Below the pieces are notes generated by a model. It saw only the letters and a program-made list of their open reading frames with translations. It was not told where the DNA came from and did not search any database. 59,986 nt of DNA, taken from the NCBI GenBank assembly GCA_946555345.1, contig CAMNSS010000019.1:1-59986 (forward strand), given 5' to 3'. Source of the stretch: an uncultured Eubacterium sp. (GTDB taxonomy: Bacteria; Bacillota; Clostridia; Peptostreptococcales; Anaerovoracaceae). This document shows positions 2,938 through 38,986 of the stretch, one piece after another (the first letter of the stretch is position 1; every line of letters starts with the position of its first letter). The position numbers and the translations under genes were made by a program.

Positions 2938-3086
2938 TGCTGTCCTCCATCTATTATCATGATATTCATGCTCGATGCATTTCTTATTATCATAACAAAT
3001 GATCCTTCGTTTGGGAACAGATGATTCACCGGATCATCCTGCTTTGCGCTCATGCCCGTCCGGGTTTGCCCCCCCTTCTTAACTTT

Positions 3087-3130
3087 GCCAAACTGAAAAG
3101 GATGCCAAAAGGCATCCTTTTCAGTTTGGC
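3087..3130 (-). terminator. 20-bp perfect hairpin fused to the tRNA-Ser 3' end
   Basis: A perfect inverted repeat (3087-3106 with 3111-3130) closes over a 4-base loop. On the minus strand the first arm begins with the discriminator G and CCA of tRNA-Ser, so the hairpin starts inside the tRNA's encoded 3' end. There is no clean T-run after it; it may act as a terminator or as a 3' processing structure. Confidence 0.6.
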
Positions 3131-3215
3131 GGAAGCGGTGGGATTCGAACCCACGTGCCCTTGCGGACAACCGCATTTCGAGTGCGGCTCGTTATGACCA
3201 CTTCGATACGCTTCC
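3127..3215 (-). tRNA. tRNA-Ser (anticodon CGA)
   Basis: An 89-base class II tRNA. The acceptor GGAAGCG pairs with CGCTTCC at the other end, the T arm reads GGTTCGAATCC, there is a long variable arm, and the anticodon loop is CTCGAAA, giving CGA (complement at 3178-3180). Discriminator G and CCA are encoded. A promoter lies at 3255-3283. It reads UCG codons. Confidence 0.95.
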
Positions 3216-3254
3216 ATATGCTTTTCGCGAAAGCTAATTTCCCCAACGGGTCTT

Positions 3255-3283
3255 AGTATACCTTAATTTGTAGTTGTATGCAA
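3255..3283 (-). promoter_or_regulatory. Promoter for tRNA-Ser
   Basis: The minus strand has TTGCAT, a 17-base spacer and TATACT, about 40 bases upstream of the tRNA 5' end. Both boxes are close to the sigma-A consensus. Confidence 0.6.
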
Positions 3284-3368
3284 TAGGATAAAGTGATATA
3301 TTTTTATTGGGAACGTTCCTGCATCCCATCACGCAAGACAACGACGTTTCAGAAAACGAGGTTACCAA

Positions 3369-4214
3369 ATGCATAAAAACATAGATGTCATCGTCGCAAA
3401 CGCTTCAGGAAACATTACCATCATGGTCCTCACGCCAACAGACCGTAAGGATTATAAAAAAATCGCGCGGCAGCTTTTGCAGCGCAAAGAACTGGACGGT
3501 GAACAGGTGGCTTTTTTACTTCCGGAAAAAGGTACGGCCCACACCGGTCCTGCCGCAGAAACTGCGCCTTCCCCCTTCCCGCAAATGGAAATGTGCGGGC
3601 TTGAATTTTGCGGCAACGCATCCAGGGCATTTGCGCTTTACATAGCAAATACAAGAAAACCGAAACAAGACAGGATCACCATAAAAACCAGCGGCTGCGA
3701 CAAACCGCTGACAGCCCACATAGCCCCCAACGGAACAGTCGCAATGGAAATGCCCGTGCCTTCCAGTATCCAGCTTATGCCAGCGAAAAAGCTTTCCCTT
3801 CAAAAAGACGGCCTTCTCGTAAAGATGGATGGCATTGCCCACCTGATCTTGCAAGATATTGCACCTGCGATGGAACTTTTTGAAACGATCAAGGAATATG
3901 TCTATGAAACCATTGCCCCTGATTTGCCCGCATTCGGGATCATGTTCTGCGACACCGTCAATCGGTATATGACGCCGGTCGTCTATGTAAAGGACGTAGA
4001 CAGCACATATTTCGAGGGAAGCTGCGCATCTGGCACGGTGGCGGCATCTTTTGCGCTGGCAGAAAGCAAGCCAAATGGAATCCACGCCTTCACCATGCAA
4101 CAGCCGGAGGGCGTTCTTTATACGACGGTGACAAAAAAAGAAGGCCTTGTGAAGCGAATCTCGCTCAAAGGCCGGATCACTTGTTCCGATGTAATTCATG
4201 TGAAGCTTCCGTAA
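3369..4214 (+). CDS. DapF-superfamily amino acid racemase/epimerase
   Basis: A 281-residue protein of the diaminopimelate epimerase fold. It has the two-cysteine layout of PLP-independent racemases: C81 in a CGNASR motif and C219 in GSCASGT, which correspond to the two half-site catalytic cysteines of DapF. The rest is divergent from housekeeping DapF, and an extra cysteine (C76) sits just before the first motif. It could be a DapF-like or CntK/histidine-racemase-like enzyme acting on another amino acid. It stands alone on the plus strand, with no lysine-pathway or metallophore genes nearby. GAGG is placed about nine bases before the ATG. Fold and mechanism are well supported; the substrate is unknown. 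Confidence 0.75.
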   Translation: MHKNIDVIVANASGNITIMVLTPTDRKDYKKIARQLLQRKELDGEQVAFLLPEKGTAHTGPAAETAPSPFPQMEMCGLEFCGNASRAFALYIANTRKPKQDRITIKTSGCDKPLTAHIAPNGTVAMEMPVPSSIQLMPAKKLSLQKDGLLVKMDGIAHLILQDIAPAMELFETIKEYVYETIAPDLPAFGIMFCDTVNRYMTPVVYVKDVDSTYFEGSCASGTVAASFALAESKPNGIHAFTMQQPEGVLYTTVTKKEGLVKRISLKGRITCSDVIHVKLP

Positions 4215-5455: not shown

Positions 5456-6565
5456 ATGGACTCAAGAATCAAGAAACTGGCCGGCCTGCTGACGGACTAT
5501 TCTTGCGACGTGCAGAAAGGCGACAAGGTTCTGATCAGTTATGAAGGAGAGTGTTGCAAAAGCTTAGTACGGCAGCTTATTAAAAATGTTTATGCAAAGG
5601 GCGGCATGCCTTACGCAGAAATCAGGGATTCCGCTATTAATCGGGAAATCATGATGGAATGCTGCCAGGAGCAGATCGAATTTATGAACGATTACCAACT
5701 GGCGCAGATGAAAGGAATGCAGGCCTATATCGCCATCAGGGCCGGCGGCAATACGGCGGAGCTTTCCGATGTCCCGTCCGAAAAGCTCAATCTATACAGT
5801 AAGCTGACAAGGCCAACGCTGGACTACCGGGTAAACAAGACGAAATGGGTCGTTTTAAGATACCCGAACAACTCCATGGCGCAGCTTGCCAACAGCAGCC
5901 TGGAAGCTTTTGAAGATTTCTACTTCGATGTCTGCACCTTGGATTACCAGAAGATGAGCAAGGCGATGGACAGCCTGGTGGAACTGATGAACAAGACCGA
6001 CAAAGTCCACATCAAAGGACCTGGCACGGATTTGAAATTTTCCATCAAGGGCATCCCTGCCATCAAATGCGACGGCGAGCGGAATATTCCTGACGGGGAA
6101 GTCTACACCGCGCCCGTGCGGGAATCCATGAACGGCACAATCGCATACAATACGCCTTCCGAGGAACAGGGCTTCACCTACGAAAATATCGTCTTTAAGG
6201 TGAAAAACGGCAAAATCGTCAAAGCGACGGCAAACAACGACGAACGGATCAACCAGCTTCTGGATACCGATGAAAACGCCAGGTATTTCGGCGAGTTTGC
6301 CATTGGCGTGAACCCATATATCCTCCACCCGATGAAAGATACGCTCTTTGACGAAAAAATCGCAGGCAGCTTCCACCTGACGCCGGGCGCTGCTTATGAG
6401 GATGCGTTCAATGGCAACAAATCAGCCATCCACTGGGATCTGGTCATGATCCAACGACCGGAATACGGCGGCGGGGAAATCTACTTCGACGACGTACTGA
6501 TCCGAAAGGACGGAATATTCGTCATCCCAGAGCTTGAATGCCTCAACCCTGATAATTTGAAATAA
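5456..6565 (+). CDS. M29-family aminopeptidase
   Basis: A 369-residue thermophilic-type (M29) metallo-aminopeptidase, the usual length for the family. Recognisable elements are the N-terminal domain (DSRIKKLAGLLTDYS), the catalytic half with RESMNGTIAYNTPS, the histidine in ILHPMKDT, the HWDLVMI segment and the C-terminal GGEIYFDD. Together these supply the Glu, His and Asp ligands of the two-metal site. It removes N-terminal residues from peptides in the cytoplasm. AAGGAGG precedes the ATG by about six bases. A TATAAT at 5403-5408 lies upstream. It is monocistronic, closed by a strong terminator. Confidence 0.93.
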   Translation: MDSRIKKLAGLLTDYSCDVQKGDKVLISYEGECCKSLVRQLIKNVYAKGGMPYAEIRDSAINREIMMECCQEQIEFMNDYQLAQMKGMQAYIAIRAGGNTAELSDVPSEKLNLYSKLTRPTLDYRVNKTKWVVLRYPNNSMAQLANSSLEAFEDFYFDVCTLDYQKMSKAMDSLVELMNKTDKVHIKGPGTDLKFSIKGIPAIKCDGERNIPDGEVYTAPVRESMNGTIAYNTPSEEQGFTYENIVFKVKNGKIVKATANNDERINQLLDTDENARYFGEFAIGVNPYILHPMKDTLFDEKIAGSFHLTPGAAYEDAFNGNKSAIHWDLVMIQRPEYGGGEIYFDDVLIRKDGIFVIPELECLNPDNLK

Positions 6566-25557: not shown

Positions 25558-28500
25558 TCACATTACCCTGGCAAACGTGCGCAGTGCGAAAAGATACATA
25601 TAAGCTTCCTTGACCGGTTTTCCTTTTGCCGCTTCAAGAGCCTCTCTGTAAAGCTCCATCTGCTTGGCATAACGCTCTATGATATCTTGCTTGCGCGCAC
25701 CGCCGCCTACATGGCTGTTTTTATAATCGATCAACACAATTCCATCCGCTTCTTCAAAGAAACAGTCGATAATTCCCTGCACCAATGTTGTAACGCCATC
25801 GACTTCCGTCTGCAAAAGAAATTCGCGTTCCTTCTCCAGCGTTTTGCAGGATGCGGCGCGGATGCCAACCGGATCGTTAAAAAACGCCGCAATATTTTCT
25901 AAGCGTACCGCCGCCCGCTCTTCATCGTCAAGCTGTCCATCTGCATGAAGCTGGTCCGCTATCTGCGCAATATATGGACTGCCGCCCTCGAGCGCTGCCG
26001 CAAAATCGAGCTTTTCCATCACAAGATGCATCGCCGTACCAGCCTGGGCAGCGCCAATTTGCCTCTTCGTTTCGGAAAATGCCGGTCTTGCCAGGTAAAA
26101 GTCCTGCGCTTTTTCGCCGCCCTGTTTATTGATCTCCGTCACCGAATACTTTGATTTTACCGCATTCAAATGGGCGTGTGCATATGTATAAGATAACCGC
26201 TCTTCTATTTTTTCTTGCATCCCATCATCTGGTACGATTCCATCCGTATCAAGCAGCTCCGCCAGGCTGAGCCGTGCTGCGGCCTGCTGCTTTGAAAAGA
26301 ACGCTGGCTGGCTGGAATCCTCGTATATAACTTCCGCCCCGAAAGCTTCCATCGCATCGTATAACATTTCAAGCGGGCTGTTATGGCTGAACGCTCCATG
26401 CAGTGCGCCGCGGCACGTCCCCGTCAATATAAACCGGTCCATCGCCCTTGTCATCGCCACATAGAGAATCCTGATTTCCTCTTCGATGTGGTCGCTTGCG
26501 TTTTCCTGGTTGATGATCTGCTGGAGCAGCGTGCTGCGATACCACTTCTGTGCTTTATTTACCTGCGGAAGCCCGATGGCGAGACTCTTATGCATGGACG
26601 GGGAACGGATTTCCCGCTGGTTGCGGTAGCGTTTTCCCGTTTCCGCCAGGATGACAACAGGAAACTCCAGGCCCTTGCTCTTGTGGATGGTCATGATCTG
26701 CACGAGGTTGCTCTCCTCCGATAAAACCTTAGCCTCCTCGACCGGCCTGCTGCTCTTTTTCATCGCTTCCACATACGAGAGGAATCCGTAAAGGCCGCCG
26801 TAATTATCTTCCTCATACTGCGCCGCCTTCCCCGCCAAAAGCCGCAGGTTGGAAATACGCTGTTTTCCAGCAGGCAGGCTGCTGCAATAGTCAAAATATC
26901 CGGTATCATAGAGCAATATCCTGACGAGTTCCTCCAGGGAAACGGTATGCTTCAATTCCTTCCAGTATTGGATTTTTTCAAGCATGGCGGAAAGCTTGCA
27001 CGCAAGCCCCGCCTGCGGGCCTTCCTTTTGGTATCGCTGTACCGCATCGTAATAAGAAGGGCTCTTCCCCGCAAAAATCCTGATTTCCGCTAACTCCCTG
27101 ACCGTAAAACCGAACACGGGACACCGCATCACGGAAACCAGCGGGATGTCCGCCCTCGTATTGTCTATGATTTTCAACAGGTTGACAAACACCTGGATTT
27201 CAACCGTATCAAAATATCCGCCCTCGCTTTTCCCATAAGCGGGAATCCCCTGGTTATTGAGGAACTTTTCCAGCTCGCCGATCAGATTTCCATTTCGCAC
27301 CAGGACTGCGATATCGCCGTATTCTATGCTTCTCATGCAATCCCGCTTAACATCATAGATCGCATGGCCTTTGTTTTCCGCTATTATTTTAGCGATCAGC
27401 TTCATTTCCATTTCGGTTTTATCCGCAATTTCATCAGGCGATTGCGGCTTGTTTTCCGCTGCGTCAAGGTCGATGAGATGTATCTGGGCATCAAGGCCGG
27501 GATACTTTCCGCCGATAGCCGGATTGGCTTTGAGCGCAGCATTTTCATCATAATCACGCATGATCGATGCGAACACCCCGTTGACCAGGCCGATGACTTT
27601 ATTTTTACTGCGGAAATTCGTATTGAGGTCTATCTTGATGCTCTCCGTCGCATCGCCCGCACCATATGCGGCGTATTTGCGCTTGAAGATATCGGGATCT
27701 GCCTGCCTGAACCGATAGATGCTCTGCTTTACATCCCCTACCATGAAGAGGTTATCCCCTCTGGTAATCCTGGCGATGATCATCTCCTGTAGCATATTGC
27801 TGTCCTGAAATTCATCAATAAAAATGTAGCGAAACTTATCCCGGTATTCCGCAGCCACCTTATCATCGTCCAGAATATCGATCGCATCATGCATGACATC
27901 ATCAAAATCCATCTTGTTTTTCTGGTTCTTTTTCTCCCGGAAGATGGATTCCAGTTCTTTGACGAGGGAAACCAGGTATTTCGTATCTTCATAGCTTTCC
28001 CGCAATGCATCGTCGTATGCTTCGGGACTCTGTTTGTAATACCGCTTTTTTAAATCGTCCAGCGCTTTTTTCCCTTGGCTGTGCAAAGACTTGAACTGCT
28101 GCTCGATCAGGGCATAACCCGGCTTTTCGTCTGCCCGCCGCCTGGGGATGTTCACTTTCAGGAGCTTGTCGCAAAAAGCGCCGTATGCCGTCTCCATGCC
28201 CGTAACATCATCCTGCGCCCTGCACTTTGCAAAAACGCCCGCACAGCGGTCAAGATCCGCCCGTACCAATTCATTGAGCCTGTCCAGCGCCGCTTTTTCC
28301 AAAACATCCGCCGCACCTTCAAAGCATCTGCGCACTTTCTCAAACGTTCTTTTCGTATCCGCCATCACAAAAGCGGCAAGCCCCAGCGCCTTCACCGGTG
28401 AATCCGCGTGCAGCAATTCCGTTTTTTCCTCCGCCCAAGCCATGTAATGCGGGATGCTCCTCATTTTTTTGTATAAAGAAACGATGCTATTTTTAATCTC

Positions 28501-28998
28501 GTTTTCATTCCGGTCTCTGCTGTACTTCTTCAAAAATTCCGCAAAAGCCCCGTAATCCTCCGCAAACCGCCGCTCGAACAGTTCATCAACCGCTTCCCGC
28601 TCCATAATGTCCCGCTCTGTTTCATCACAGATTTTAAGGCCTGGTTCCAAGCCGGCCACATAAAAATATTTATGTACGACTTCCATGGAAAAGGTATGAA
28701 ACGTGCTGATATTCGCCTTGGGAAGCAGCGTCAGCTGCCTTTTCAAAAATGCCCTGTCCGCCCCCGGCTCATCCATCGCTTGGTTGATCGCGTTTTCCAA
28801 GCGTTCCTTCATTTCTTCCGAGGCTGCATTTGTAAAGCTGGTGATGAGAAACCTGTCGATATCGACCTTGTCCTTGATCACGAGCTGCTTGATCCGCTCA
28901 ACGAGCACGGCCGTTTTCCCCGATCCGGCCGCCGCCGCCACCAGGATATTCCGCCCCCTGTCCGTTATCGCACACTGTTGTTCCTTGGTCCAGCCCAT
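25558..28998 (-). CDS. addA: AddA, ATP-dependent helicase/nuclease subunit A
   Basis: A 1146-residue UvrD-like helicase-nuclease, somewhat short for AddA. Walker A is AAAGSGKTA (residues 22-30). Helicase motifs follow (FIDEFQDSN, GDVKQSIYRFRQADP, TIHKSKGLEFPVV, YVAMTRA). The C-terminal RecB-like nuclease motif is GIIDCFFEEADGIVLIDYKN. With AddB it processes double-strand breaks for RecA loading. The start ATG at 28998 follows GGGAGG by six bases; an in-frame upstream ATG lies before that site. AddB, usually immediately upstream, is not in this window. Confidence 0.96.
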   Translation of the reverse strand: MGWTKEQQCAITDRGRNILVAAAAGSGKTAVLVERIKQLVIKDKVDIDRFLITSFTNAASEEMKERLENAINQAMDEPGADRAFLKRQLTLLPKANISTFHTFSMEVVHKYFYVAGLEPGLKICDETERDIMEREAVDELFERRFAEDYGAFAEFLKKYSRDRNENEIKNSIVSLYKKMRSIPHYMAWAEEKTELLHADSPVKALGLAAFVMADTKRTFEKVRRCFEGAADVLEKAALDRLNELVRADLDRCAGVFAKCRAQDDVTGMETAYGAFCDKLLKVNIPRRRADEKPGYALIEQQFKSLHSQGKKALDDLKKRYYKQSPEAYDDALRESYEDTKYLVSLVKELESIFREKKNQKNKMDFDDVMHDAIDILDDDKVAAEYRDKFRYIFIDEFQDSNMLQEMIIARITRGDNLFMVGDVKQSIYRFRQADPDIFKRKYAAYGAGDATESIKIDLNTNFRSKNKVIGLVNGVFASIMRDYDENAALKANPAIGGKYPGLDAQIHLIDLDAAENKPQSPDEIADKTEMEMKLIAKIIAENKGHAIYDVKRDCMRSIEYGDIAVLVRNGNLIGELEKFLNNQGIPAYGKSEGGYFDTVEIQVFVNLLKIIDNTRADIPLVSVMRCPVFGFTVRELAEIRIFAGKSPSYYDAVQRYQKEGPQAGLACKLSAMLEKIQYWKELKHTVSLEELVRILLYDTGYFDYCSSLPAGKQRISNLRLLAGKAAQYEEDNYGGLYGFLSYVEAMKKSSRPVEEAKVLSEESNLVQIMTIHKSKGLEFPVVILAETGKRYRNQREIRSPSMHKSLAIGLPQVNKAQKWYRSTLLQQIINQENASDHIEEEIRILYVAMTRAMDRFILTGTCRGALHGAFSHNSPLEMLYDAMEAFGAEVIYEDSSQPAFFSKQQAAARLSLAELLDTDGIVPDDGMQEKIEERLSYTYAHAHLNAVKSKYSVTEINKQGGEKAQDFYLARPAFSETKRQIGAAQAGTAMHLVMEKLDFAAALEGGSPYIAQIADQLHADGQLDDEERAAVRLENIAAFFNDPVGIRAASCKTLEKEREFLLQTEVDGVTTLVQGIIDCFFEEADGIVLIDYKNSHVGGGARKQDIIERYAKQMELYREALEAAKGKPVKEAYMYLFALRTFARVM

Positions 28999-29035
28999 CG
29001 TTTTCCTCCCTGGCATTTCGGTGATAATTCATTTT

Positions 29036-29064
29036 ATCATACCATACTGGCGCAGAAACATCAA
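29036..29064 (-). promoter_or_regulatory. Promoter for addA
   Basis: The minus strand has TTGATG, a 17-base spacer and TATGAT, about 40 bases upstream of the addA start. This supports addA being transcribed alone. Confidence 0.6.
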
Positions 29065-29416
29065 TTTCATCGCCATCGGAAAGGAATTTTATGTTATACT
29101 GGTTTTAGGTAAATTGTAATGAAGCCCGCCGATGACATAGAACCGGCGAAGCCGCTTTATTTTCATGCAGAAAATATCGTTAGGCGCGATATGGCGGCCC
29201 GCCCCGGACGCCCTGCTAATTTCCGGGGCTTATCCTGAAAATTATACGGATTTGCAGAACTGGCCTGAATATCCAGTAAATAAGGGAAAACCGTCCTGAA
29301 TTTCCGGCGGCTCAAGGAATGCAGCAAACCCTGCTCCAATAAAACAACGCTGCCAGCTTTGTTACATATTTATGGGTAGATTAGGTTATGATGAATGAAT
29401 AGCGAGGTAAAAATAT
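29065..29416 (+). promoter_or_regulatory. Gap and possible long leader of gpmI
   Basis: TGTTATACT at 29092-29100 is a possible extended -10 pointing toward gpmI, which would give a leader of about 310 bases. That leader holds several short GC-rich pairings but matches no riboswitch class I recognise. A weaker promoter close to the gene (around 29365-29392) is an alternative. No coding region is supported here. Confidence 0.35.
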
Positions 29417-30940
29417 ATGCAAACTTACAAGCGTCCTGCCATGCTGATGATTTTAGACGGCTACGGACTCAATGAAAAAAAAGAAGGCAATGCGATCGCC
29501 GCTGCCAAAAAGCCAAACCTGGACAAAATCTTTGCACAATATCCGCAAACGACATTAAAAGCCTGCGGGCTTTCCGTGGGGCTTCCCGAAGGACAGATGG
29601 GAAATTCCGAAGTCGGGCATCTCAATATCGGCGCCGGCCGGATCGTATACCAGGATCTCACGCGGATCACCAAGGCCATCGAGGATAGCAGCTTTTTCCA
29701 AAATCCCGCCTTTCTCAAGGCCATCGCCCATGCGAAAAAAAACGATTCCACGCTCCACCTGCTGGGACTGCTTTCCGACGGCGGCGTCCACAGCCACATC
29801 ACGCACCTGCTGGCACTTTCCGACCTGGCCGCAAAGGAAGGAATCAAGTCGCTTTGCGTCCACTGCTTCCTCGACGGAAGGGACGTGCCGCCAAGATGCG
29901 CCGGGCAATATATCGAGCGTTTGGAAGCACATTTAAAGAAAACCGAGATCGGCCAGCTCGGCGTCATATCCGGCCGATATTATGCCATGGACAGGGATAA
30001 ACGCTGGGACAGGGTGGAAAAGGCGTACGATGCGATGACCCTGGGAGAAGGCGAACATGCGCCAAACGGGGCGGAAGCGATCCAGGCAGCTTACGTGCGC
30101 GGGGAAAACGACGAGTTCGTGCTTCCGACCGTGGTGGACGGGGCGATTCCTGTGCAGGATGGCGATGCCATGATCATGTATAATTTCCGCCCGGACAGGG
30201 CAAGGGAAATCACGAGAACCTTCGTGGACGCCGATTTCGACGGCTTTGCGAGGAAAAAGACAGTCGGCGATATCTGCTATATCTGCATGACCCAATACGA
30301 TGCGGAAATGCCGAACGTTACCCTGGCGTTCCCGCCGGAATCGCTGCAAAACACCCTCGGCGAATACGTAGCTGATTTAGGGCTTACCCAGCTTCGAATC
30401 GCGGAGACGGAAAAATACGCCCATGTCACCTTCTTCTTCAACGGGGGCGTGGAAGCGCCGAACCGAAACGAAGACCGCATCCTCGTGCCTTCCCCGAAGG
30501 TCGCCACATACGATATGCAGCCGGAAATGAGCGCTTATGAAGTGACCGAAAAGGTGCTGGAAGCGATCAAAACGGATAAGTACGATATGATTATCTTAAA
30601 CTTCGCCAACGCCGACATGGTTGGCCATACGGGCGTGATGGATGCCGCAATCAAGGCGATCGAAGCACTGGATCAATGTGTTCCGCAAATCGTCGATGCC
30701 ATTCTCGCAAAGGGCGGGCAGATCCTGCTTACCGCAGACCACGGCAATGCCGACGTCATGACCGATGCGGAGGGCAATACCGTGACCGCCCATTCCCTGA
30801 ACGACGTGCCGCTTATTCATATTGCAAAAGAGCCGCGCGCCTTGCATGACGGCGGCAGGCTGTGCGATATCGCACCTACGCTCTTAAAACTGATGGGGCT
30901 TGATATTCCGGAGGAAATGACGGGAAAACCGCTCGTATAG
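29417..30940 (+). CDS. gpmI: 2,3-bisphosphoglycerate-independent phosphoglycerate mutase
   Basis: A 507-residue alkaline-phosphatase-superfamily enzyme of normal length. Metal-site motifs are LMILDGYGLN near the start, GNSEVGHLNIGAGR (the phosphoserine loop, S near residue 64), and the C-terminal NFANADMVGHTG and LLTADHGNAD. The inserted transferase domain includes CFLDGRDVPPR and SGRYYAMDRD. It interconverts 3- and 2-phosphoglycerate in glycolysis with Mn(II). It stands alone rather than in the usual gapA-pgk-tpiA-gpmI cluster. A terminator follows. Confidence 0.97.
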   Translation: MQTYKRPAMLMILDGYGLNEKKEGNAIAAAKKPNLDKIFAQYPQTTLKACGLSVGLPEGQMGNSEVGHLNIGAGRIVYQDLTRITKAIEDSSFFQNPAFLKAIAHAKKNDSTLHLLGLLSDGGVHSHITHLLALSDLAAKEGIKSLCVHCFLDGRDVPPRCAGQYIERLEAHLKKTEIGQLGVISGRYYAMDRDKRWDRVEKAYDAMTLGEGEHAPNGAEAIQAAYVRGENDEFVLPTVVDGAIPVQDGDAMIMYNFRPDRAREITRTFVDADFDGFARKKTVGDICYICMTQYDAEMPNVTLAFPPESLQNTLGEYVADLGLTQLRIAETEKYAHVTFFFNGGVEAPNRNEDRILVPSPKVATYDMQPEMSAYEVTEKVLEAIKTDKYDMIILNFANADMVGHTGVMDAAIKAIEALDQCVPQIVDAILAKGGQILLTADHGNADVMTDAEGNTVTAHSLNDVPLIHIAKEPRALHDGGRLCDIAPTLLKLMGLDIPEEMTGKPLV

Positions 30941-30951
30941 GGGCTAGGGAA

Positions 30952-31003
30952 GGATGCCTGTGTTGGACAGGGCGCAGGAAATGCAGGCATCCTATAGATA
31001 CTT
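30952..31003. terminator. Terminator between gpmI and the XRE gene
   Basis: GGATGCCTG (30952-30960) pairs perfectly with CAGGCATCC (30984-30992) across a 23-base loop and is followed by a T-rich stretch. The convergent genes could share it. Confidence 0.6.
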
Positions 31004-31013
31004 TTTCCTTATC

Positions 31014-31703
31014 TTATCCCATATGTCCCGCTTTTCTCTTCCGATTGCAATAAGCTAATATTCTCAGCACAGCAAAGCTTGCTGCCGCAACCCCGATGAA
31101 AAACAGAACTACACTATGAACCGCCTGCGATGCAGATATGCCCAATCTGATGCAGCAAACCGCGAAAGCCACAGAAAAAACAGCCGCACAGCCCGCACCG
31201 ACCAGCGCGTCGGTCCATAAAGTGCTTTTGAATCCCGGCCACATTTCCCATACCCCGTGATAAACCATCGCACCGATATAAACTGCGCCACCGACAAGCA
31301 ACACGATTGTCTCCCCTGCGACAACCGCCAGCTTTCCCGTAACGATCAACTGAATAACAATCACCGCCGCACAAAACGAAAAAGTCAAACCAAAAGCAAT
31401 GCTCCCGGCCTTGACAGCTTTTTCTTTTTCCAGTTTACTGTAATCTGCTACCTTTGATAATGTCTCCTTTGTTTCCTGATCCATGATCCCGCTTCTCCTT
31501 TCTCCATCCAAAATTTCTTTCACCTCCACATCATAAAACTCTGCGATTTCAATCAGGATGCTCAAATCAGGCAGATTCGTTCCCGTTTCCCACCGTGAGA
31601 CTGACCTTCCCGACACGCAAAAGTTTTCCGCGAGCTGTTCCTGTGTCAGCCTCCGCTCCTTGCGGAGTAATTTTAAAAAAGCTCCGATCTTTTTCGTATC
31701 CAT
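31014..31703 (-). CDS. XRE-type HTH regulator with C-terminal membrane domain
   Basis: A 229-residue protein with a Cro/CI-type helix-turn-helix in the first 65 residues (FLKLLRKERRLTQEQLAENF, SRWETGTNLPDL). After a linker it has four hydrophobic segments (about 100-120, 125-147, 165-185 and 195-215). Membrane-tethered XRE regulators of this form are common in Clostridia, often near transporters or stress genes; the target is unknown. GGAGGGGCGGTAG precedes the ATG. It stands alone and converges on gpmI. Confidence 0.88.
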   Translation of the reverse strand: MDTKKIGAFLKLLRKERRLTQEQLAENFCVSGRSVSRWETGTNLPDLSILIEIAEFYDVEVKEILDGERRSGIMDQETKETLSKVADYSKLEKEKAVKAGSIAFGLTFSFCAAVIVIQLIVTGKLAVVAGETIVLLVGGAVYIGAMVYHGVWEMWPGFKSTLWTDALVGAGCAAVFSVAFAVCCIRLGISASQAVHSVVLFFIGVAAASFAVLRILAYCNRKRKAGHMG

Positions 31704-32202
31704 CTACCGCCCCTCCTTTCGCTTATATGCTATCATAGGCGCACATAATAAAACAGGACACAAAGCGAGAAATACCCTGTTTTCATGATTTCATATAAAA
31801 ACCTGCTTTAGCCCTCGCTTATCCTGCGTGTGTATTCGTGCTGCACCTGTGTCCGATCCGTTCATGGACTGCTTGCAATCTATTTGCAGTTCCGTTCATA
31901 CGCCTCCCGCTCGTTCCACCAGCCGCCTGCCTTAATTCATTAGCCGCCCGCCCGGCTCACCAATCACCTGCCCCAGTTTGATTCTCTTGATTTTTAAATA
32001 AGATACGATTTCAGAGAAATTTTCCGTATTTTTTCCTATTTTCCATGCAAAAGGCAATCTGTTTCTCTGATTTATGTAATATTTTTGCAGAGCAAGAGAA
32101 TCTAGGGGTCATTTTTCTCTCAAAATGGGATTTTGAAAAAATTCAAGAGAATTGCCCGCATGATACTGCCCTCGCTCCCTGTTTTCATGCCCGATAAACG
32201 AC
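31704..32202. repeat. Non-coding gap with repeated AAGAGAAT motifs in both orientations
   Basis: No gene is supported here. A short motif built around CAAGAGAAT recurs: GATTCTCTTG (31981-31990), CAAGAGAATC (32093-32102), TTCAAGAGAATT (32142-32153), AATTCTCTTGAA (32205-32216) and TTCAAGAGAATT (32234-32245). A separate short hairpin AAAACAGG/CCTGTTTT lies at 31750-31783. The left half is pyrimidine-rich; the right half is AT-rich. Confidence 0.6.
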
Positions 32203-32247
32203 AAAATTCTCTTGAAATTGCTATTTTCACATTTTCAAGAGAATTTT
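32203..32247 (-). terminator. 15-bp hairpin at the edge of the left direct repeat
   Basis: The arm at 32203-32217 pairs perfectly with 32233-32247 over a 15-base loop. Read on the minus strand it ends in TTTT. It abuts the displaced end of the MFS gene, so it is probably the original terminator of the minus-strand catabolic operon. Confidence 0.65.
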
Positions 32248-32459
32248 CCCTGCCCTGCTTTCCTTGCCCGGTCTCATCTTTCTCGACCGTTTTATTTTTC
32301 ACCAGTTCTTCTCGATCCACTTCTCCCGGCTCATTTTTCTCGCTCGCCCTACTCGCTCCTTCCTGCCAGCGACTTGGATTCCTTCATCCGCATCACGAGC
32401 GGTATCTACAAGCCGTTGAGAACCACGATTCCGATCATCGGGATCACGATCGAACCAGC
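32247..32459. repeat. 213-bp direct repeat, left copy
   Basis: This segment is identical to 33210-33422 at 210 of 213 positions (differences at 32408, 32421 and 32423; constant offset 963). It includes the last 112 bases of the MFS gene and 101 bases of its downstream sequence. Its right end coincides to one base with the hepT stop codon. Confidence 0.97.
32348..32459 (-). pseudogene. Displaced 3' fragment of the MFS transporter gene
   Basis: Within the left repeat the last 37 codons of the MFS gene are present without the rest of the gene. One of the three differences turns the CAG of the GLQIPL stretch into a TAG stop, and another changes isoleucine to valine. The fragment has no start and is not expressed as MFS protein. 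It marks where the gene end lay before the toxin-antitoxin cassette arrived or was copied. Confidence 0.85.
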
Positions 32460-32815
32460 TATCGGACATCGAATGTCTGAATGGTCTCATCGCAAAACTG
32501 ATACAACTGCGGGATATCAGATATCACAGTCTCCCATACTCTGTCGATATCCAAAGCGCCATAATTATGGGCGAACAAATTCCTCATCCCCTTGATTGCG
32601 GGCCAATAAATAATTTCTTTCGTCTCTTCCCGGAAATCCTCTGACAGATGTCCTGTTAATTCTCCAATTTGAAGAAGGCTCATGCAGATAGAATTTCTAT
32701 AATCCCTATCTGCATCAAAAATCATTTTATCTTTTCCAAACCGCTCAACTGCATCATCTATATCTTCACAGTAAGCCTTTATACGCTCCAATATGTCAAT
32801 GTTTTTCGTCCTCAT
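32459..32815 (-). CDS. hepT: HepT-type HEPN ribonuclease toxin
   Basis: A 118-residue all-helical HEPN protein of the HepT (formerly DUF86) family. The catalytic RX4HXY motif is R78, H83 and Y85 (MRNLFAHNYG). HepT toxins cleave RNA (tRNA in studied cases), and the partner MntA silences them by adding AMP groups to the motif tyrosine. Its start overlaps mntA by 20 bases, the standard arrangement. Its stop codon lies exactly at the border of the left direct repeat. Confidence 0.93.
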   Translation of the reverse strand: MRTKNIDILERIKAYCEDIDDAVERFGKDKMIFDADRDYRNSICMSLLQIGELTGHLSEDFREETKEIIYWPAIKGMRNLFAHNYGALDIDRVWETVISDIPQLYQFCDETIQTFDVR

Positions 32816-33128
32816 AAATCAGCTTCTCATCCTCCCCTATACCGATGCAAAACCGTTTTGTCCGAGCTTGATTCGCACTATGACGGAGGGCCTCTGTAGT
32901 CACGAGATCCACGGGTTTTTTCAGTGCCTGGGTCAGCTCATCATAAAGAGCGCCCAAACCAAACATACTCTTAACTGCTCCCCCATCAATCCGCAGGTCA
33001 ATGTCACTGTTCTCATCTGCTTCGCCACGGGCATAAGAACCAAAAAGATATGCCCTGCTCACTCCGTAGCTTTGCAAAATAGGATGTATAATCTCCTGAA
33101 TTTCATCTACTACATATACCTTTTCCAC
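32796..33128 (-). CDS. mntA: MntA-type nucleotidyltransferase antitoxin
   Basis: A 110-residue minimal nucleotidyltransferase. G30-S31 with D42 and D44 gives the GSX10DXD signature (GSYARGEADENSDID), and a third acidic residue follows in PVDLVT. The studied homologue AMPylates HepT and neutralises it. The GTG at 33128 is the start because GAGGAGGGG lies five bases before it; the open frame upstream has no ribosome site. Promoter at 33157-33186. Both genes lie in a 750-base segment between the 213-bp repeats. Confidence 0.92.
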   Translation of the reverse strand: MEKVYVVDEIQEIIHPILQSYGVSRAYLFGSYARGEADENSDIDLRIDGGAVKSMFGLGALYDELTQALKKPVDLVTTEALRHSANQARTKRFCIGIGEDEKLIYEDEKH

Positions 33129-33156
33129 GATTTCCCCTCCTCTCTGCTCGCATTTT

Positions 33157-33186
33157 ATTGTACCATTCGCTTCTCTCCATTTCAAC
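33157..33186 (-). promoter_or_regulatory. Promoter of the mntA-hepT cassette
   Basis: The minus strand reads TTGAAA, an 18-base spacer and TACAAT, about 30 bases before the mntA ribosome site. It lies inside the cassette, 24 bases from the right repeat, so the cassette carries its own promoter. Confidence 0.65.
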
Positions 33187-33209
33187 CCTGCTATTCCTTA
33201 TGCCAAAAT

Positions 33210-33422
33210 CCCTGCCCTGCTTTCCTTGCCCGGTCTCATCTTTCTCGACCGTTTTATTTTTCACCAGTTCTTCTCGATCCACTTCTCCCGGCTCATTTTT
33301 CTCGCTCGCCCTACTCGCTCCTTCCTGCCAGCGACTTGGATTCCTTCATCCGCATCACGAGCGGTATCTGCAAGCCGTTGAGGATCACGATTCCGATCAT
33401 CGGGATCACGATCGAACCAGCC
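33210..33422. repeat. 213-bp direct repeat, right copy
   Basis: This is the partner of 32247-32459. The right copy is the functional end of the MFS gene (stop codon at 33311) plus 101 bases downstream. Together the copies bracket the mntA-hepT segment 32460-33209. Confidence 0.97.
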
Positions 33423-34528
33423 AGCCCGCTCAAGCCTTCGAAGAAGAAGACGAACAGCGTTCCCGAAATCTGCCCCATCAGCAGGATCAATCCCAGGGAC
33501 GTCCCTTCCTGTGCCGGATAAGCCACCTCCGAGCCATGCTGGAACAAAATCGGCGCAACGCCCATGATCGAAAACCCGCAGACAGCGGCAATCACTACCA
33601 AAAGGAGATACCCATGGACAAAGGTGAATGCCAAGTAAAGCGGAACTAAAAGCGTTACCGCAGCCAGCAGGAACGGAATCCTCCTCCCCGCCTTATCGGA
33701 AATAATCGGCAACACGACAGCACCCGCCACGCCCGCCACGACAAACACCGCACCGATGATGCCGGCCTGCGCCGACGTGATGCCGCGCGGCATCAGGATG
33801 CTTTCGATTAAAGTCAAAATCGTATTGAAAATGCCAATGGAAACAAACGCCGCAAAAAGTGCAAGCCTGTAAGCGCGATTCTTAAAAAGCGACGCAATCG
33901 CAGAAAAGCTGAAATCCTCTTTCTCCGCCAAAGGCCCCGGAGGCGTAACCTGCGGCTTCTCCCGCGTCAGGAAGATCGCAATCACAGCGGCGACGATTCC
34001 CACTGCGGCAAACACGCGCAGCATCGCAGGAATCCCTGCGGATTCGGCTAAAACCGGCGAAAGCACCATCGGAATCGCAAATCCAAGATACTGCGCCATC
34101 GTCAAAATGCCGTCCGCAGTCGCCCGCTCCCGGAACGGAAACCAGTTCGCCGCCACCTTCGTCGTCACATTGAGCAAAAACGGCTGCCCCGCCGCTACCA
34201 GAAACTGCGATATAATCACCAGCGAAAAAGAATCCGAAAATGCCGCCCTGGTAAAGCCGAAAACTCCCGTCAAGAGACCGCCTATGATCAGCGACACCCG
34301 GAATCCGAACCGGTCGATCACATACGACGCCGGAATACAGCAGATGATAAACATGAGCATGTAGCTGGTTGCCAGCATATTGACCGCAAAGTTGCTAACA
34401 CCGTAAAACGCCTCCACGACGCTTGCGATCGGGGAAAAGGTAAGCCACATCATCTCCGTTGCAATCACGACGGGAACTGTGGCAAAGAGTACGACCCACC
34501 TGTAAGGCGATACGCTCCTGTCTTTCAT
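33311..34528 (-). CDS. MFS transporter of the aminotransferase/aldolase/kinase cluster
   Basis: A 405-residue major facilitator with about twelve membrane helices. The loop after helix 2 is SYVIDRFGFRVS and helix 5 follows GQPFLLNVTTKVAANWF; the general look is of a small-metabolite/FLVCR-like carrier rather than a drug pump. The ATG at 34528 overlaps the kinase stop (ATGA) and follows AGAGGAG by eight bases, so it is translationally coupled. As last gene of the cluster it probably imports the substrate. Its final 112 bases are duplicated at 32348-32459. Confidence 0.9.
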   Translation of the reverse strand: MKDRSVSPYRWVVLFATVPVVIATEMMWLTFSPIASVVEAFYGVSNFAVNMLATSYMLMFIICCIPASYVIDRFGFRVSLIIGGLLTGVFGFTRAAFSDSFSLVIISQFLVAAGQPFLLNVTTKVAANWFPFRERATADGILTMAQYLGFAIPMVLSPVLAESAGIPAMLRVFAAVGIVAAVIAIFLTREKPQVTPPGPLAEKEDFSFSAIASLFKNRAYRLALFAAFVSIGIFNTILTLIESILMPRGITSAQAGIIGAVFVVAGVAGAVVLPIISDKAGRRIPFLLAAVTLLVPLYLAFTFVHGYLLLVVIAAVCGFSIMGVAPILFQHGSEVAYPAQEGTSLGLILLMGQISGTLFVFFFEGLSGLAGSIVIPMIGIVILNGLQIPLVMRMKESKSLAGRSE

Positions 34529-36129
34529 TTTGCACACTCCTCTCTCAGCTTATGAAAATTATTTTTATTGTTCTTGTAAAGATCCTGGAAAATTTTAAAT
34601 AACGTCTGGTATCGCTTTGTATTCTCCCCGCGCGGCGCATAGGAAGCAGCAGCCGGAATGCGCTCCCGCACCTCGGAAAGGTCGCCAAACAATCCCAGCC
34701 CTACCGCCATGATTGCCGCTGCCCCGACCGAGCCTGCGTTTTGCGGGTTATCGACCGTTTCCACCGTCTTGCCCAGCACATCCGCAAGGATCTGGCAGGT
34801 CAGGCCGGACAATGCGCCGCCGCCCACGAAACGGATCACCTCGGAAGACGGCGTCAGCTTTTCCATCGCGCTCATCTGCCATTTCAAATGCATACAAACG
34901 CCCTCAATCACCGCATGCACCATGTCGAGCGCCGTCGTTTCGATCCCCAGCCCGAAAAACATTCCCCTAGCGTCCGCATCCTCGAACGGATTCCTGTTGC
35001 CATGAAGCCAAGGCGTAAAAATCACACCGTTGCTGCCCGCCGGGACATCCTGGATACGCTCCATAATAAAACTGTAGACATTCTTTTTATTGCTTTCGAT
35101 GTCCGCCGCAAAGCGCTTTTCACCGAAAATCCCCATTTCATCCAGCCCGATATGATCCCGCGCCCATTCGAGGCACTTGCCGGCCGTTTCCAGCTCCGCA
35201 AAACAGTTAAACCGAGCAGGATCAGCCCCCACGATGGATGCGATCATCGAGCCGACATCCAGCTTCTGCTTTTCCACAACCGTGCAGACCCAGCCCGAAG
35301 TCCCCATGTACACATGGGTATCCCCGGCCTTGGCCGCCCCGGCGCCGACGCCGATCAGGGAAGCATCACCGCCGCCCGAAAACACCGGCGTTCCTTCCGC
35401 AAGCCCCAGCTCCTTCGCCGCCTTAGCCGTAATGCCGCCCACCGCATCGCTGCTCAATACGATCTCCGGCAGATGGCTCATATCCACCTCCATCATGCGG
35501 CACAGCGTTTCGCTGAAGCAATTTTTCCCCCGCCTCGTATCGTAGAGCAACGTGGAAAACGCACTGTCGCGGGACATCGTGAATTTTCCGCTCGCCTTGT
35601 AAACCAAAAAGTCCTTTACATCGAGCCACTTATGTACGCGGGAAAAAACCTCCGGCTCGTTGTCCGCCACCCAGCGGTATTTGAACACGGGATCTTTGAC
35701 GCTGCCCGAAACAGCGCCGCTGATCTGCAAAGAGCGCAAAAGCCGCCATGCGTTCAGCCCAGCAATTTTAACGCCTTTGTGCATCAGCTGATCGATCTGC
35801 GCCTTGCCCCGGTTGTCCATGTAGCTCATGGCCCTGCGCACGGGATTTCCCTCTGCGTCTACCAAAACCACCGCCTGCATCTGCGCACAAAACGAAATGC
35901 CCTTGATCTCTTCTTTGGCGATGCCCGCCTTTTGCAAAAGCTTCCCCGTTGTCACGCACATGGCGTCCCACCACTGATCCGGGTCTTGCTCCACACCGCC
36001 ATTATCCAGCACATAGAGATCGTAGTCCTGCATCTGCCCCGCGACAAGCTCGATCGGCTGGCCTTTCTCCATGCGAAACAGACAGCTTTTCAGCCCCGTC
36101 GTTCCTACGTCATAGGCGATTACATACAT
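34525..36129 (-). CDS. FGGY-family carbohydrate kinase (xylulokinase-like)
   Basis: A 534-residue sugar kinase. The N-terminal FGGY domain starts VIAYDVGTTGLKSCLF and contains ISFCAQMQAVVLVD; the second domain has VFSGGGDASLIGVGAG, YMGTSGWV, and the C-terminal FVGGGALSGLTCQILADVLG. It phosphorylates a sugar or polyol before aldol cleavage. Closest in appearance to xylulose kinases, but family members have many substrates. AGGGAGG precedes the ATG. It overlaps the downstream MFS gene and lies about 110 bases after the aldolase. Confidence 0.92.
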   Translation of the reverse strand: MYVIAYDVGTTGLKSCLFRMEKGQPIELVAGQMQDYDLYVLDNGGVEQDPDQWWDAMCVTTGKLLQKAGIAKEEIKGISFCAQMQAVVLVDAEGNPVRRAMSYMDNRGKAQIDQLMHKGVKIAGLNAWRLLRSLQISGAVSGSVKDPVFKYRWVADNEPEVFSRVHKWLDVKDFLVYKASGKFTMSRDSAFSTLLYDTRRGKNCFSETLCRMMEVDMSHLPEIVLSSDAVGGITAKAAKELGLAEGTPVFSGGGDASLIGVGAGAAKAGDTHVYMGTSGWVCTVVEKQKLDVGSMIASIVGADPARFNCFAELETAGKCLEWARDHIGLDEMGIFGEKRFAADIESNKKNVYSFIMERIQDVPAGSNGVIFTPWLHGNRNPFEDADARGMFFGLGIETTALDMVHAVIEGVCMHLKWQMSAMEKLTPSSEVIRFVGGGALSGLTCQILADVLGKTVETVDNPQNAGSVGAAAIMAVGLGLFGDLSEVRERIPAAASYAPRGENTKRYQTLFKIFQDLYKNNKNNFHKLREECAK

Positions 36130-36238
36130 AAGCCGCCTCCCTTCTCTCCATCATCATCGGTTGCCGCTCCCTTCATGGCCGGCCTTTTCGTTTCCTTCTT
36201 GCCACGAGCTGCCTCCTGCTCTGCTTCTTAACAGCCCG

Positions 36239-37306
36239 TTATGCTTCCCGCTTCGAATATTTTTTCAAATAAAACTGCCGCATCAACAAGCTTTCCCAGC
36301 GGCTAAGCGGTTTTTCGCCGATGGCGGCAAGCGCCGCCCGGCAGTTTTTCTCGATTACGATGGAAAGCGCCTCGCAATCGCTCTCTTTCACCGCCGCACA
36401 GAGTGCGCCCCTGCCTTTTACGAGAAGCGGATTGCCCGTATCGATGGCGAGCTGGATCAGAAAAGCGTTTTCCTCCGTCACTTCCAGCCCTGTTCCCACG
36501 AGCTGCGCGAAATCATCAAGATATGGTTTTAGCTCTGCCCTTGCCTCCATGTATTTGAGGATTACCGGGCTGCTGTTCCAAAGCCCGCCGTACTGCTCCG
36601 CCAGCTCCTGCTCCATCTTCTGCGCCGCACCGTGAGCTGCGTTAGCGCCGCAAGCCATATCACAAGCCGCACCCATGCCGGACGCCGCATCGCAAGGCGC
36701 ATCTGCACTGAGCTTCGCACCGCAAGCCGCATCCACACCGAGATCGGCAAGATACCGCCCGCACGCTTCCTCCAGCGTGTGCGCGATTTCAAATGCCTCA
36801 TCGTAATCGCGCCCATAGCATACCGCGCCATGATTTCTCATGATCACCGCTTTATGGCCGGTCTCCTTGACGGCGGCAGCCGTATTGCGGCAAAGCCGTT
36901 TCGTCCCCGGAAGTCCGTATTCCGCGCAGAGTACGTAATTCCCCAGCCCCGGGTATTCCCGATCCAGCTTGATACGGGAAAGCCCCATCGCCGAAACGGC
37001 CGACGCATTGCTCTGATGGGTATGGATCACAAAGTTAGCGTCTTCTTTGATGCGGTAAATCTCCCTGTGGACTTTTTTCTCCGAAGACGGTTTCACCCCG
37101 TTTTTATCATAGCTTAAATCATCGATTTTCACCTCGATGACTTCTTCCGGCGTAAGCGTCATATAATTGCGCCCGCTGGCAGTGATGACAAAATGCGCTT
37201 CATCCGTCCGGCAGCTGACGTTTCCCCATGTCCTGGCGATCAGCCCCGATTCGGACAGCGCCTTGCCAGCCTCGATCACTTGCTTCTTTGCATCTAATAT
37301 ATCCAT
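36239..37306 (-). CDS. Class II aldolase/adducin-family protein with low-complexity insert
   Basis: A 355-residue protein. The first 200 residues are a class II (zinc) aldolase domain, with the metal histidines in VIHTHQSNASA and MRNHGAVCYG. Then comes an Ala/Cys/Gly-rich stretch of about 40 residues (DAACGAKLSADAPCDAAS and similar) encoded by degenerate short repeats at roughly 36623-36742. A C-terminal region of about 110 residues (AQLVGTGLEVTEENAF, VKGRGALCAAVKESD) has an aldolase-like look and may be a second, decayed half. The start ATG at 37306 is set by GAGGTG upstream. In the cluster it would cleave a phosphorylated sugar. Confidence 0.85.
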   Translation of the reverse strand: MDILDAKKQVIEAGKALSESGLIARTWGNVSCRTDEAHFVITASGRNYMTLTPEEVIEVKIDDLSYDKNGVKPSSEKKVHREIYRIKEDANFVIHTHQSNASAVSAMGLSRIKLDREYPGLGNYVLCAEYGLPGTKRLCRNTAAAVKETGHKAVIMRNHGAVCYGRDYDEAFEIAHTLEEACGRYLADLGVDAACGAKLSADAPCDAASGMGAACDMACGANAAHGAAQKMEQELAEQYGGLWNSSPVILKYMEARAELKPYLDDFAQLVGTGLEVTEENAFLIQLAIDTGNPLLVKGRGALCAAVKESDCEALSIVIEKNCRAALAAIGEKPLSRWESLLMRQFYLKKYSKREA

Positions 37307-37510
37307 CGCCTTCACCTCATTTTCTTTCCCGGCCGTCTGGGCATCCTGCTTTCTGGTAAAATTTTTTCCCACTTTCCTGCAAGCCGTTTATTTCATATTT
37401 GGGCAAACAACGCAACCCGTTTTCCTGTAAACATTTTATCCTGATTCCCAGCAGGCAGTTTGCCTGCGGCCTGTTTGGCCTGTTCCACGCTGGACAGTGC
37501 ATTCTTCCTC

Positions 37511-38986
37511 TTATTTAATCTGTTCCACGTTCGACAGCACTTTATCAAAACGCCTTAAAACATCGTCGATCATCGCTTCATCGTATGCCGCGCTCGTATA
37601 GAGCCTGCTGCCCGCCAGTGTCACGATTCCTTCCGCCATATAGGCAGCTCCCATGTGTTCCATCTCTTTTTTTCGGATGGAGGTCTGCTTCAAAACGCCT
37701 GGGATCTTCCATGGCTTTGACCAGTCGATCGCATACTGCATCGTACCCGTCGTATCCAGATGGCATACAGAACCCTGGTTGAAAGCGACAAACGGCAGTC
37801 CATACCGGTCGATGATCGCATTGAGTCCAGCAACCAGCCGATCGGCCATCCGCCCTGATTTTTCGATCGCGCCGCTTGTTTCGATTTCGCACAGCGTATA
37901 ATACCCCGCCACACAGGTGACCGAAGCAGCCGCCATCGTGCCGCCGACCAAAGCTTTCGGATTTTTCGATCCGCCGTTAAGGCCAGACGCCAAGTATTTC
38001 ATATATTCTTTCTTGCCGCCGATGCCGCCTGCGCCCGGATAGCCGCCGCCGATCACCTTGCCGAACAGCGTCAGGTCAGGAGAAATGCGGTAATACCCCT
38101 GTGCGCCGGACATCCCGATGCGGAAGCCCGTTACCACCTCGTCGCATACGAGAAGCGCGCCGTACTTCCTGCAAAGGAACTCAACCCCTTTCGGAAAATC
38201 GTATTCCACAGGCCTCGTGCCGCTCTCCGGTCCGATCGCTTCGATGAACACCGCCGCCGTTCCGCCTTTCTTGGCATTATCCTTTAATACCCGTTCCAAA
38301 TCGCTTAAATCGCCAGGGAAAAACTCATCTGTATAACGGAACATCTTCTTCGGTACGCCGCTGGCCTGCGTCCACCTTGAACCGGGGATTCTGATGCTGT
38401 AAGCGAGCTGGTCATTCCAGCCATGGTACGCGCCGCCCATCTTTACAATCCGCTTATTCTTGGTGGCAAGCCTTGCGATCCGCGTCGCCGCCATCGCCGC
38501 CTCGTTTCCCGAATTGAGCATCCGGAACATCTCGACGGAAGGAACGCTGTCGCAGATTTTCTTCGCCAGCTTATATTCGTATTCATGGAAAAGCCCGGTT
38601 GACGGTCCGCAGGTATCGAGCAGCGCCAGCACCTGATCCCGCACTGCTGGCGGATTGCTCCCCAGGACAACAGGGCCTCCTGCCTGCAAAAAGTCATAAT
38701 ACCGATTGCCGTCAATATCGTAGAGAAACGCGCCCTCCGCCTTGCTAAATGCTAGCGGGAACGGATGGTTGAACGCAAGATTGTGCTGCACGCCGCCCGG
38801 GATGATCTCCATCGCTTCATCGATCAGTTCTTTTGACCCTGCGCATTTCTTGCCAAAATAATCTTCCTCATAAGCCGCAAGCGCCCCAGGCTTGATCGAA
38901 TAAAGCGGCATCTTCATCAGCCGGTCCAGCTTCTGGTTGATTTTTCCCGCATCGGGATACGTTGAAATCGAAAATTTCTGTTCCAT
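37511..38986 (-). CDS. Class III PLP aminotransferase (GSA-aminomutase-like)
   Basis: A 491-residue fold-type I PLP enzyme. Seen are GGVQHNLAFNHPFPLAF, the cofactor-ring motif MLNSGNEAAMAATRIAR, LVCDEVVTGFRIG, and the PLP lysine in LTLFGKVIGGGYPGAG. It resembles glutamate-1-semialdehyde aminomutase but is longer at the N-terminus and sits in a catabolic cluster instead of with heme genes. Transfer of an amino group to or from a sugar-derived aldehyde or ketone is therefore the likelier role. GAGGTGAAGAAT precedes the ATG at 38986. First structural gene after the TetR regulator. Confidence 0.88.
   Translation of the reverse strand: MEQKFSISTYPDAGKINQKLDRLMKMPLYSIKPGALAAYEEDYFGKKCAGSKELIDEAMEIIPGGVQHNLAFNHPFPLAFSKAEGAFLYDIDGNRYYDFLQAGGPVVLGSNPPAVRDQVLALLDTCGPSTGLFHEYEYKLAKKICDSVPSVEMFRMLNSGNEAAMAATRIARLATKNKRIVKMGGAYHGWNDQLAYSIRIPGSRWTQASGVPKKMFRYTDEFFPGDLSDLERVLKDNAKKGGTAAVFIEAIGPESGTRPVEYDFPKGVEFLCRKYGALLVCDEVVTGFRIGMSGAQGYYRISPDLTLFGKVIGGGYPGAGGIGGKKEYMKYLASGLNGGSKNPKALVGGTMAAASVTCVAGYYTLCEIETSGAIEKSGRMADRLVAGLNAIIDRYGLPFVAFNQGSVCHLDTTGTMQYAIDWSKPWKIPGVLKQTSIRKKEMEHMGAAYMAEGIVTLAGSRLYTSAAYDEAMIDDVLRRFDKVLSNVEQIK

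Follow-up and report, generated by a model that had tools for sequence, protein, structure and literature searches.

In toxin-antitoxin pairs of the MntA-HepT kind, MntA AMPylates HepT, and without MntA the RNase is free. One question is how small toxin-antitoxin pairs move from chromosome to chromosome when no known mobile element carries them. Integrase-borne islands are known that target the ends of genes, with replacement of the gene end. In the accessible part of PMC3874152, which cites Nobusato 2000 and Furuta 2010, some restriction-modification systems are described as moving without a mobile element, with long and variable target duplications of the order of 100 bp; the accessible part of PMC3031569 likens IS-linked products to this long-target-duplication form of insertion, and the reference list of a toxin-antitoxin review, also accessible in part, contains Nobusato (PMC2654758). 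In the literature searched, most subscription papers being outside its reach, we found no description of a long target duplication for HepT/MntA.

Here we describe an mntA-hepT pair enclosed by a long direct repeat at the 3' end of an MFS transporter gene. The window, by which we mean the whole stretch of DNA analysed (59,986 bp), is the entire contig C19 of a draft genome of 36 contigs and 2.85 Mb. As far as the restriction-modification case is described in the accessible parts of PMC3874152 and PMC3031569, the locus shares with it an addiction-type pair, no linked mobile element and a long, variable, direct target duplication; unlike that case, its cargo is a type VII pair, the second repeat copy lies near the hepT stop codon in 10 of the 13 loci returned by a wide scan, and an empty site at strain level is not seen here. 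Locus-variable long direct repeats at both borders, with neither transposase nor integrase nor terminal inverted repeats, are what marks this form of insertion, and all of this was found. Toxin-antitoxin pairs in Tn3-family transposons likewise show such pairs riding on mobile DNA (PMC7157771, accessible part), whereas neither a transposase ORF nor terminal inverted repeats were found at this locus; the locus also differs from an integrase-borne gene-end island in having no integrase ORF between its repeats and no att core shared across loci. The structure is real and not unique, and it is most probably a recent case of a known form of gene mobility, now with a type VII pair as its cargo.

A direct repeat encloses the pair

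A repeat search returned a 213-bp direct repeat with an offset of 962 (Table 1), whose copies are identical at 210 of 213 positions when compared base by base. The three mismatches (32408, 32421 and 32423) all lie within 16 bp, inside the part that copies MFS coding sequence, a clustering that is unexplained. The initial annotation had given the same identity and the same left copy, and both stand; the right copy, which it placed at 33210-33422, was one base off. Every one of the 139 repeated 30-mers in the window can be assigned to this pair of copies, and no third copy was found in the 2.85-Mb draft at E ≤ 0.001, giving two in total. A chance origin of the repeat pair is excluded. An artefact of assembly or of strain mixture is conceivable in a draft of 36 contigs, but we consider it very improbable, as the copies differ at three sites, each copy has its own flank, and similar structures occur in other assemblies.

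Table 1. Features of the mntA-hepT locus, in window coordinates
Feature	Position	Strand	Remarks
Hairpin	32203..32246		Abuts the outer edge of the left repeat; absent from terminator-scan output
Left repeat copy	32247..32459		Putatively dead copy of the MFS 3' end at 32349-32459 (-), with in-frame stop
hepT	32459..32815	-	118 aa; PF01934, 62 bits (cut-off 23.5); RX4HXY = R78, H83, Y85
Inserted unit	32460..33208	-	Promoter, mntA and nearly all of hepT; 749 bp, 43% GC
mntA	32796..33128	-	About 110 aa; PF18765/PF01909 (PF01909 42.2 bits, cut-off 21); GSX10DXD
mntA ribosome-binding site	33134..33140	-	GGAGGGG, by eye
Promoter-like site	33157..33185	-	TTGAAA-17-TACAAT; similar boxes in near homologues L064, L070 and L079
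Right repeat copy	33209..33421		Putatively live MFS 3' end (33311-33421) and 102 bp further
MFS transporter gene	33311..34537	-	Proposed insertion target; 408 aa, open frame intact

Read along the minus strand, the order is the MFS gene, 102 bp of its 3' flank, the insert, a second MFS end with the same flank, and the hairpin, around which 146 bases have a DNA fold z of -4.2. In the empty site that we infer, this hairpin would begin 102 bp beyond the MFS stop codon. The GC content of the insert is 43.1%, against 54.9% in positions 33422-34537 of the MFS gene. ORFs of at least 70 aa in the insert are confined to mntA, hepT and frames overlapping them; in agreement with the initial annotation, the ORF list for the interval between the repeats holds no transposase, integrase or recombinase. 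No inverted repeats of at least 20 bp were reported over 28000-38000, and no terminal inverted repeats were found when the insert ends were compared by eye. Near the left copy, an intergenic repeat at 32079-32157 has partial copies at G000:C1:93635-93714 and C3:171667-171726 (G, C and L numbers are our labels for genomes, contigs and loci).

The cargo is a predicted type VII pair

The genes matching PF01909 and PF01934 are adjacent and in antitoxin-first order, with mntA upstream of hepT, and the motifs RX4HXY in HepT and GSX10DXD in MntA are kept across alignments of ten sequences each. These are signature motifs of HepT/MntA type VII systems in the accessible part of PMC7641770; the window's pair has the same gene order, Pfam families and motifs as the system described there, and differs from it in lying between long direct repeats and in falling below the NCBIfam equivalog cut-offs (HepT 26 against 60 bits, MntA 44.1 against 60), a score that serves as a naming threshold and is not a defining trait. 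Judged from these sequence features, the window holds a putative class I HEPN/MNT (type VII) toxin-antitoxin system, and its earlier description as a self-contained MntA-HepT cassette is upheld by the Pfam matches and motif alignments. The mntA gene probably starts at the GTG at 33128, as judged from homologues; its longest ORF begins at a TTG at 33185. A promoter scan gave three promoter-like sites in 2 kb, against 2.5 expected by chance.

The hepT stop codon had been said to touch the repeat border, and it does overlap the left repeat, by one base. With 118 aa, HepT falls 11-19 residues short of five close homologues (129-137 aa). We do not claim that the junction truncated it, because many HepT proteins are equally short: 101 of the 145 sampled have at most 118 aa, and a phage homologue (L319), 71% identical, has 120 aa. 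No second HepT was found in the window's draft genome, and a PDB profile search gave a single match, to a designed protein.

The transporter gene and the arrival of the cassette

The right copy of the MFS end has an open frame and encodes an isoleucine that is common to 15 of 16 aligned relatives, whereas the left copy has a valine codon at this position and an in-frame stop. Given this stop and the valine codon, the left copy appears to be a dead, decaying tail and the right copy the live end of the gene. The initial annotation had proposed that the cassette brought a replacement end for the MFS gene. This proposal is unsupported: the right copy is open, the left copy is decayed, and the divergence of the tail from 12 relatives (partial gene copies omitted) is not unique, since 3 of the 38 windows of a sliding-identity comparison along the gene are at least as diverged. 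Duplication of the resident target explains the repeat better than import of an MFS end does.

The MFS region is present in 17 of the 49 genomes searched from the genus, both counts including the window's own genome, and 14 of the 16 MFS-bearing relatives can be read for about 1.3 kb or more beyond the MFS match. None of these 14 has the cassette beside the MFS gene, the best DNA match to the mntA-hepT part having E = 0.35, and to this extent the suggestion that the cassette arrived at this locus is borne out. PF01934 is found in nine of the 49 genomes (own included), and in those that bear the MFS gene it lies on other contigs. The sequence past the MFS gene differs among the relatives and does not align between species, so that a clean empty site is not demonstrable. 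Five homologues of Lachnospiraceae/Eubacterium type share 71-76% identity with the window's HepT over 112-115 residues, against at most 48% for matches within its own family; in a tree of 45 HepT proteins the window's HepT falls in a clade of seven rows with the Lachnospiraceae/Eubacterium-type homologues, with moderate support of 92/85, which is below the program's star. Horizontal arrival of the cassette is well supported by these sequence comparisons; most likely the insertion is recent and duplicated 213 bp of its target.

The same two-copy structure would result if one copy were donor DNA, that is, if a donor MFS end arrived together with mntA-hepT and was joined by homologous recombination on one side and illegitimately on the other, or if a circle carrying an MFS end and the cassette entered by a single crossover, for which repeats of this length should suffice. 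Such an arrival requires an earlier insertion at the same place, and none is seen in the 14 readable relatives, nor is the MFS tail set apart by its divergence; we therefore regard it as unlikely.

Similar repeats at other mntA-hepT loci

The first set comprised 164 loci, gathered by retrieving nearly all of the HepT matches listed; 145 had the pair, with 136 unique cassettes, of which 135 were left after merging and a filter for mntA-first order. Removal of identical HepT tails reduced them to 133, where cassettes count as distinct if they differ anywhere in the final 60 residues of HepT; related loci thus remain. A wide scan for direct repeats of at least 40 bits that span the pair within 1.5 kb returned 13 of the 133 cassettes, against 6 of 528 mock cassettes. 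The six mock matches come from two loci: four from L091, which has simple repeats, and two from L187, where the mocks lay within a genuine duplication around the cassette. In ten of the 13 matches the second copy begins near the hepT stop codon.

A geometry test, for which 125 cassettes had sufficient flank, asked for a second copy starting between 40 bp before and 60 bp after the hepT stop codon, again at 40 bits or more. It was positive for 10 of the 125 cassettes, the window included, whereas of 312 gene-anchored mocks taken from these loci one was positive (one-sided Fisher p of about 2e-5); pairing the upstream flank of one locus with the downstream flank of another gave 0 of 15,500 at 40 bits. 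Two of the ten, L111 (both copies in coding sequence) and L070 (82%), are doubtful and yet counted. We also judged the matches at L091 (simple repeats), L156 (99 bp, 117 bp past hepT), L111 and L149 unconvincing. The geometry was selected after the first wide scan, and a later set therefore matters: its 27 rows came down to 18 when five duplicate-locus rows and four refetched or near-identical loci were removed, and to 17 without L304, which lacks a right flank. One of these 17 new cassettes was positive, L311, with a 48-bp, 94% repeat that starts 5 bp past the hepT stop codon. The sole gene-anchored mock match at 40 bits is a direct repeat of 131 bp and 88% identity that flanks an unrelated ORF close to mntA-hepT in L075 (4972-5101 and 5825-5955, reverse-strand coordinates).

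As a control we used ParE-type pairs, 90 loci among the matches listed, with the better of two cassette definitions taken for each. One of the 90 was positive in the geometry test, a modest excess for mntA-hepT (p of about 0.02). In the wide scan 7 of the 90 had spanning repeats, a frequency similar to the 13 of 133 for mntA-hepT, and most of these seven repeats look, by eye, dispersed, palindromic or like a piece of a tRNA. The repeats may reflect a general toxin-antitoxin effect, and only about 8% of mntA-hepT loci carry them. Direct repeats of 139 bp (91%) in L234 and 87 bp (84%) in L223 span ParE-type pairs.

The repeat-bearing loci are scattered across the 45-row HepT tree (eight are in it: the window, L036, L070, L073, L081, which is the cassette of L187, L089, L093 and L167), and this scatter points to independent events. 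No repeat matches that of another locus at 40 bits or more, and thus there is no shared core; the lengths differ from locus to locus, the geometry test giving 31 to 213 bp and L187 having 362 bp. These differences count against a former integrative element that once used a site-specific recombinase to target gene 3' ends and has since lost this enzyme, as does the lack of any further ORF of at least 70 aa in the insert, and although gene-end targeting and replacement are known from integrase-borne islands, we hold such an origin to be extremely improbable. Tandem duplication is common in bacteria, and the structure could have formed locally if an insertion without duplication was followed by tandem duplication of repeat and cassette and by loss of one cassette. 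This course of events needs two steps, with a deletion that ends near the hepT stop codon, repeatedly at unrelated loci, and it can hardly be credited.

Kinds of duplicated sequence

The initial annotation had suggested searching genomes for mntA-hepT between duplicated gene ends; comparable repeats did turn up in other genomes, and two of them are duplicated gene ends. The closest parallel to the window is L187 (G428), revealed by a scan with 4-kb flanks over 59 loci of at least 6 kb, in which an 835-aa ORF contributes its final 314 bp to a 362-bp, 99.7% repeat (2538-2899 and 5643-6004), a further 48 bp making up the rest. The two copies enclose an insert of 2.7 kb that holds mntA-hepT together with a gntR-type gene and the cut start of an aldolase-like gene (names by eye). 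In L123 a gene end is duplicated over 88 bp at 83%, 731 bp beyond hepT. Promoter or intergenic sequence is duplicated in L089 (81 bp, 98%, ahead of a divergent gene that by eye is peptidyl-prolyl isomerase-like), L168 (73 bp, 96%), L145 (37 bp, 95%) and L188 (31 bp, 90%). The repeats of L168 and L089 are present in exactly two copies in their respective genomes; the genus searches for these two returned the query genome alone each time, and they speak to copy number only (G375 is 72% complete). Hairpins, several of them terminator-like, form the repeats of L073, L311, L093, L139 and, below the 40-bit line, L167; these five shorter repeats could instead have arisen by local duplication of a hairpin.

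Several further arrangements were observed at these and other loci. A short repeat unlike the intergenic one near the window's left copy is found in G192, about 30 bp beyond the L168 duplication, and has 42 other matches. At 1704-2385 of L168, mntA-hepT stands behind a Phd/ParE-like toxin-antitoxin pair (named by eye), as if such pairs were stacking. Stretches of an upstream ORF are copied again past hepT in L063 (1808-1832 and 4518-4542, 25 bp, exact) and L068 (2769-2823 and 4424-4478, 55 bp, 95%), and these short copies are possibly remnants of longer duplications. A comparison of G727 and G751 with G753 (L186 and L300) was set aside as a parallel: where G727 and G751 carry mntA-hepT, next to a topoisomerase-like gene (by eye), the related G753 has another gene, swapped at the gene borders and without direct repeats, which is a different kind of exchange.

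A staggered break as the probable route of insertion

From these observations, we hypothesize that a break with widely staggered ends at the 3' end of the MFS gene took up a minimal mntA-hepT unit of horizontal origin, and that fill-in duplicated 213 bp, an account that we consider probable. A cut in each strand, the two separated by tens to hundreds of bp, would have accepted the foreign fragment, and filling in the stagger would have duplicated the 213 bp between the cut points, leaving the MFS gene with its own end and a second, decaying copy behind hepT. The unit carries no enzyme for the joining, which would probably be the work of host repair acting on a two-nick break or of a similar end-joining event. 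The pair would then persist because its loss is costly, as expected of addiction from the known relation of MntA and HepT.

The host gene would survive because the duplicated stretch covers its end, promoter or terminator, and with a long duplication it would be understandable that such units insert at gene ends and do the host no harm. That the second copy lies close behind hepT may be due to selection for the smallest unit that works or to a property of the joining step; inserts larger than the minimal unit do occur, as in L187. Since the window's duplication abuts a hairpin and several loci duplicate one, we take breaks linked to hairpins as a lead, and no more.

The mechanism proposed for restriction-modification systems would in this way extend to type VII toxin-antitoxin pairs, and scars around the same gene pair hint at spread without a transposase. 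More tentatively, and as a possibility that we would not yet back, mntA-hepT might be a transposase-free mobile unit that repeatedly enters chromosomes with nothing more than the stretch from promoter to stop codon, next to the ends, promoters or terminators of host genes, each time duplicating a long and variable piece of the target and so sparing the host gene. The process would perhaps be shared by addiction modules generally, and the edge near the hepT stop codon would point to a definite, undescribed joining step. The window and its parallels provide a concrete scar to search for, and one that is testable in strain collections.

Plasmid and phage copies of the pair

Enterobacterial copies proved uninformative: 69 E. 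coli records in 67 of 5,426 genomes lie at 61 plasmid and 8 chromosomal places, and 67 of the records are at least 99% identical. The sole enterobacterial region that was read belongs to a Klebsiella plasmid; there the pair is followed by a cupin gene, with a transposase nearby. Scans of viral sequences for mntA-hepT gave 1 and 9 loci. The IMG/VR contig L319 has, at 3007-3682, an mntA-hepT pair close to that of the window (71% each), which sits between phage single-strand-annealing and helicase genes, the hepT stop codon overlapping the helicase start; Faecalibacterium phage FP_oengus has other small genes in the interval that matches the place of this pair. An L319-like phage is a possible vehicle for mntA-hepT.
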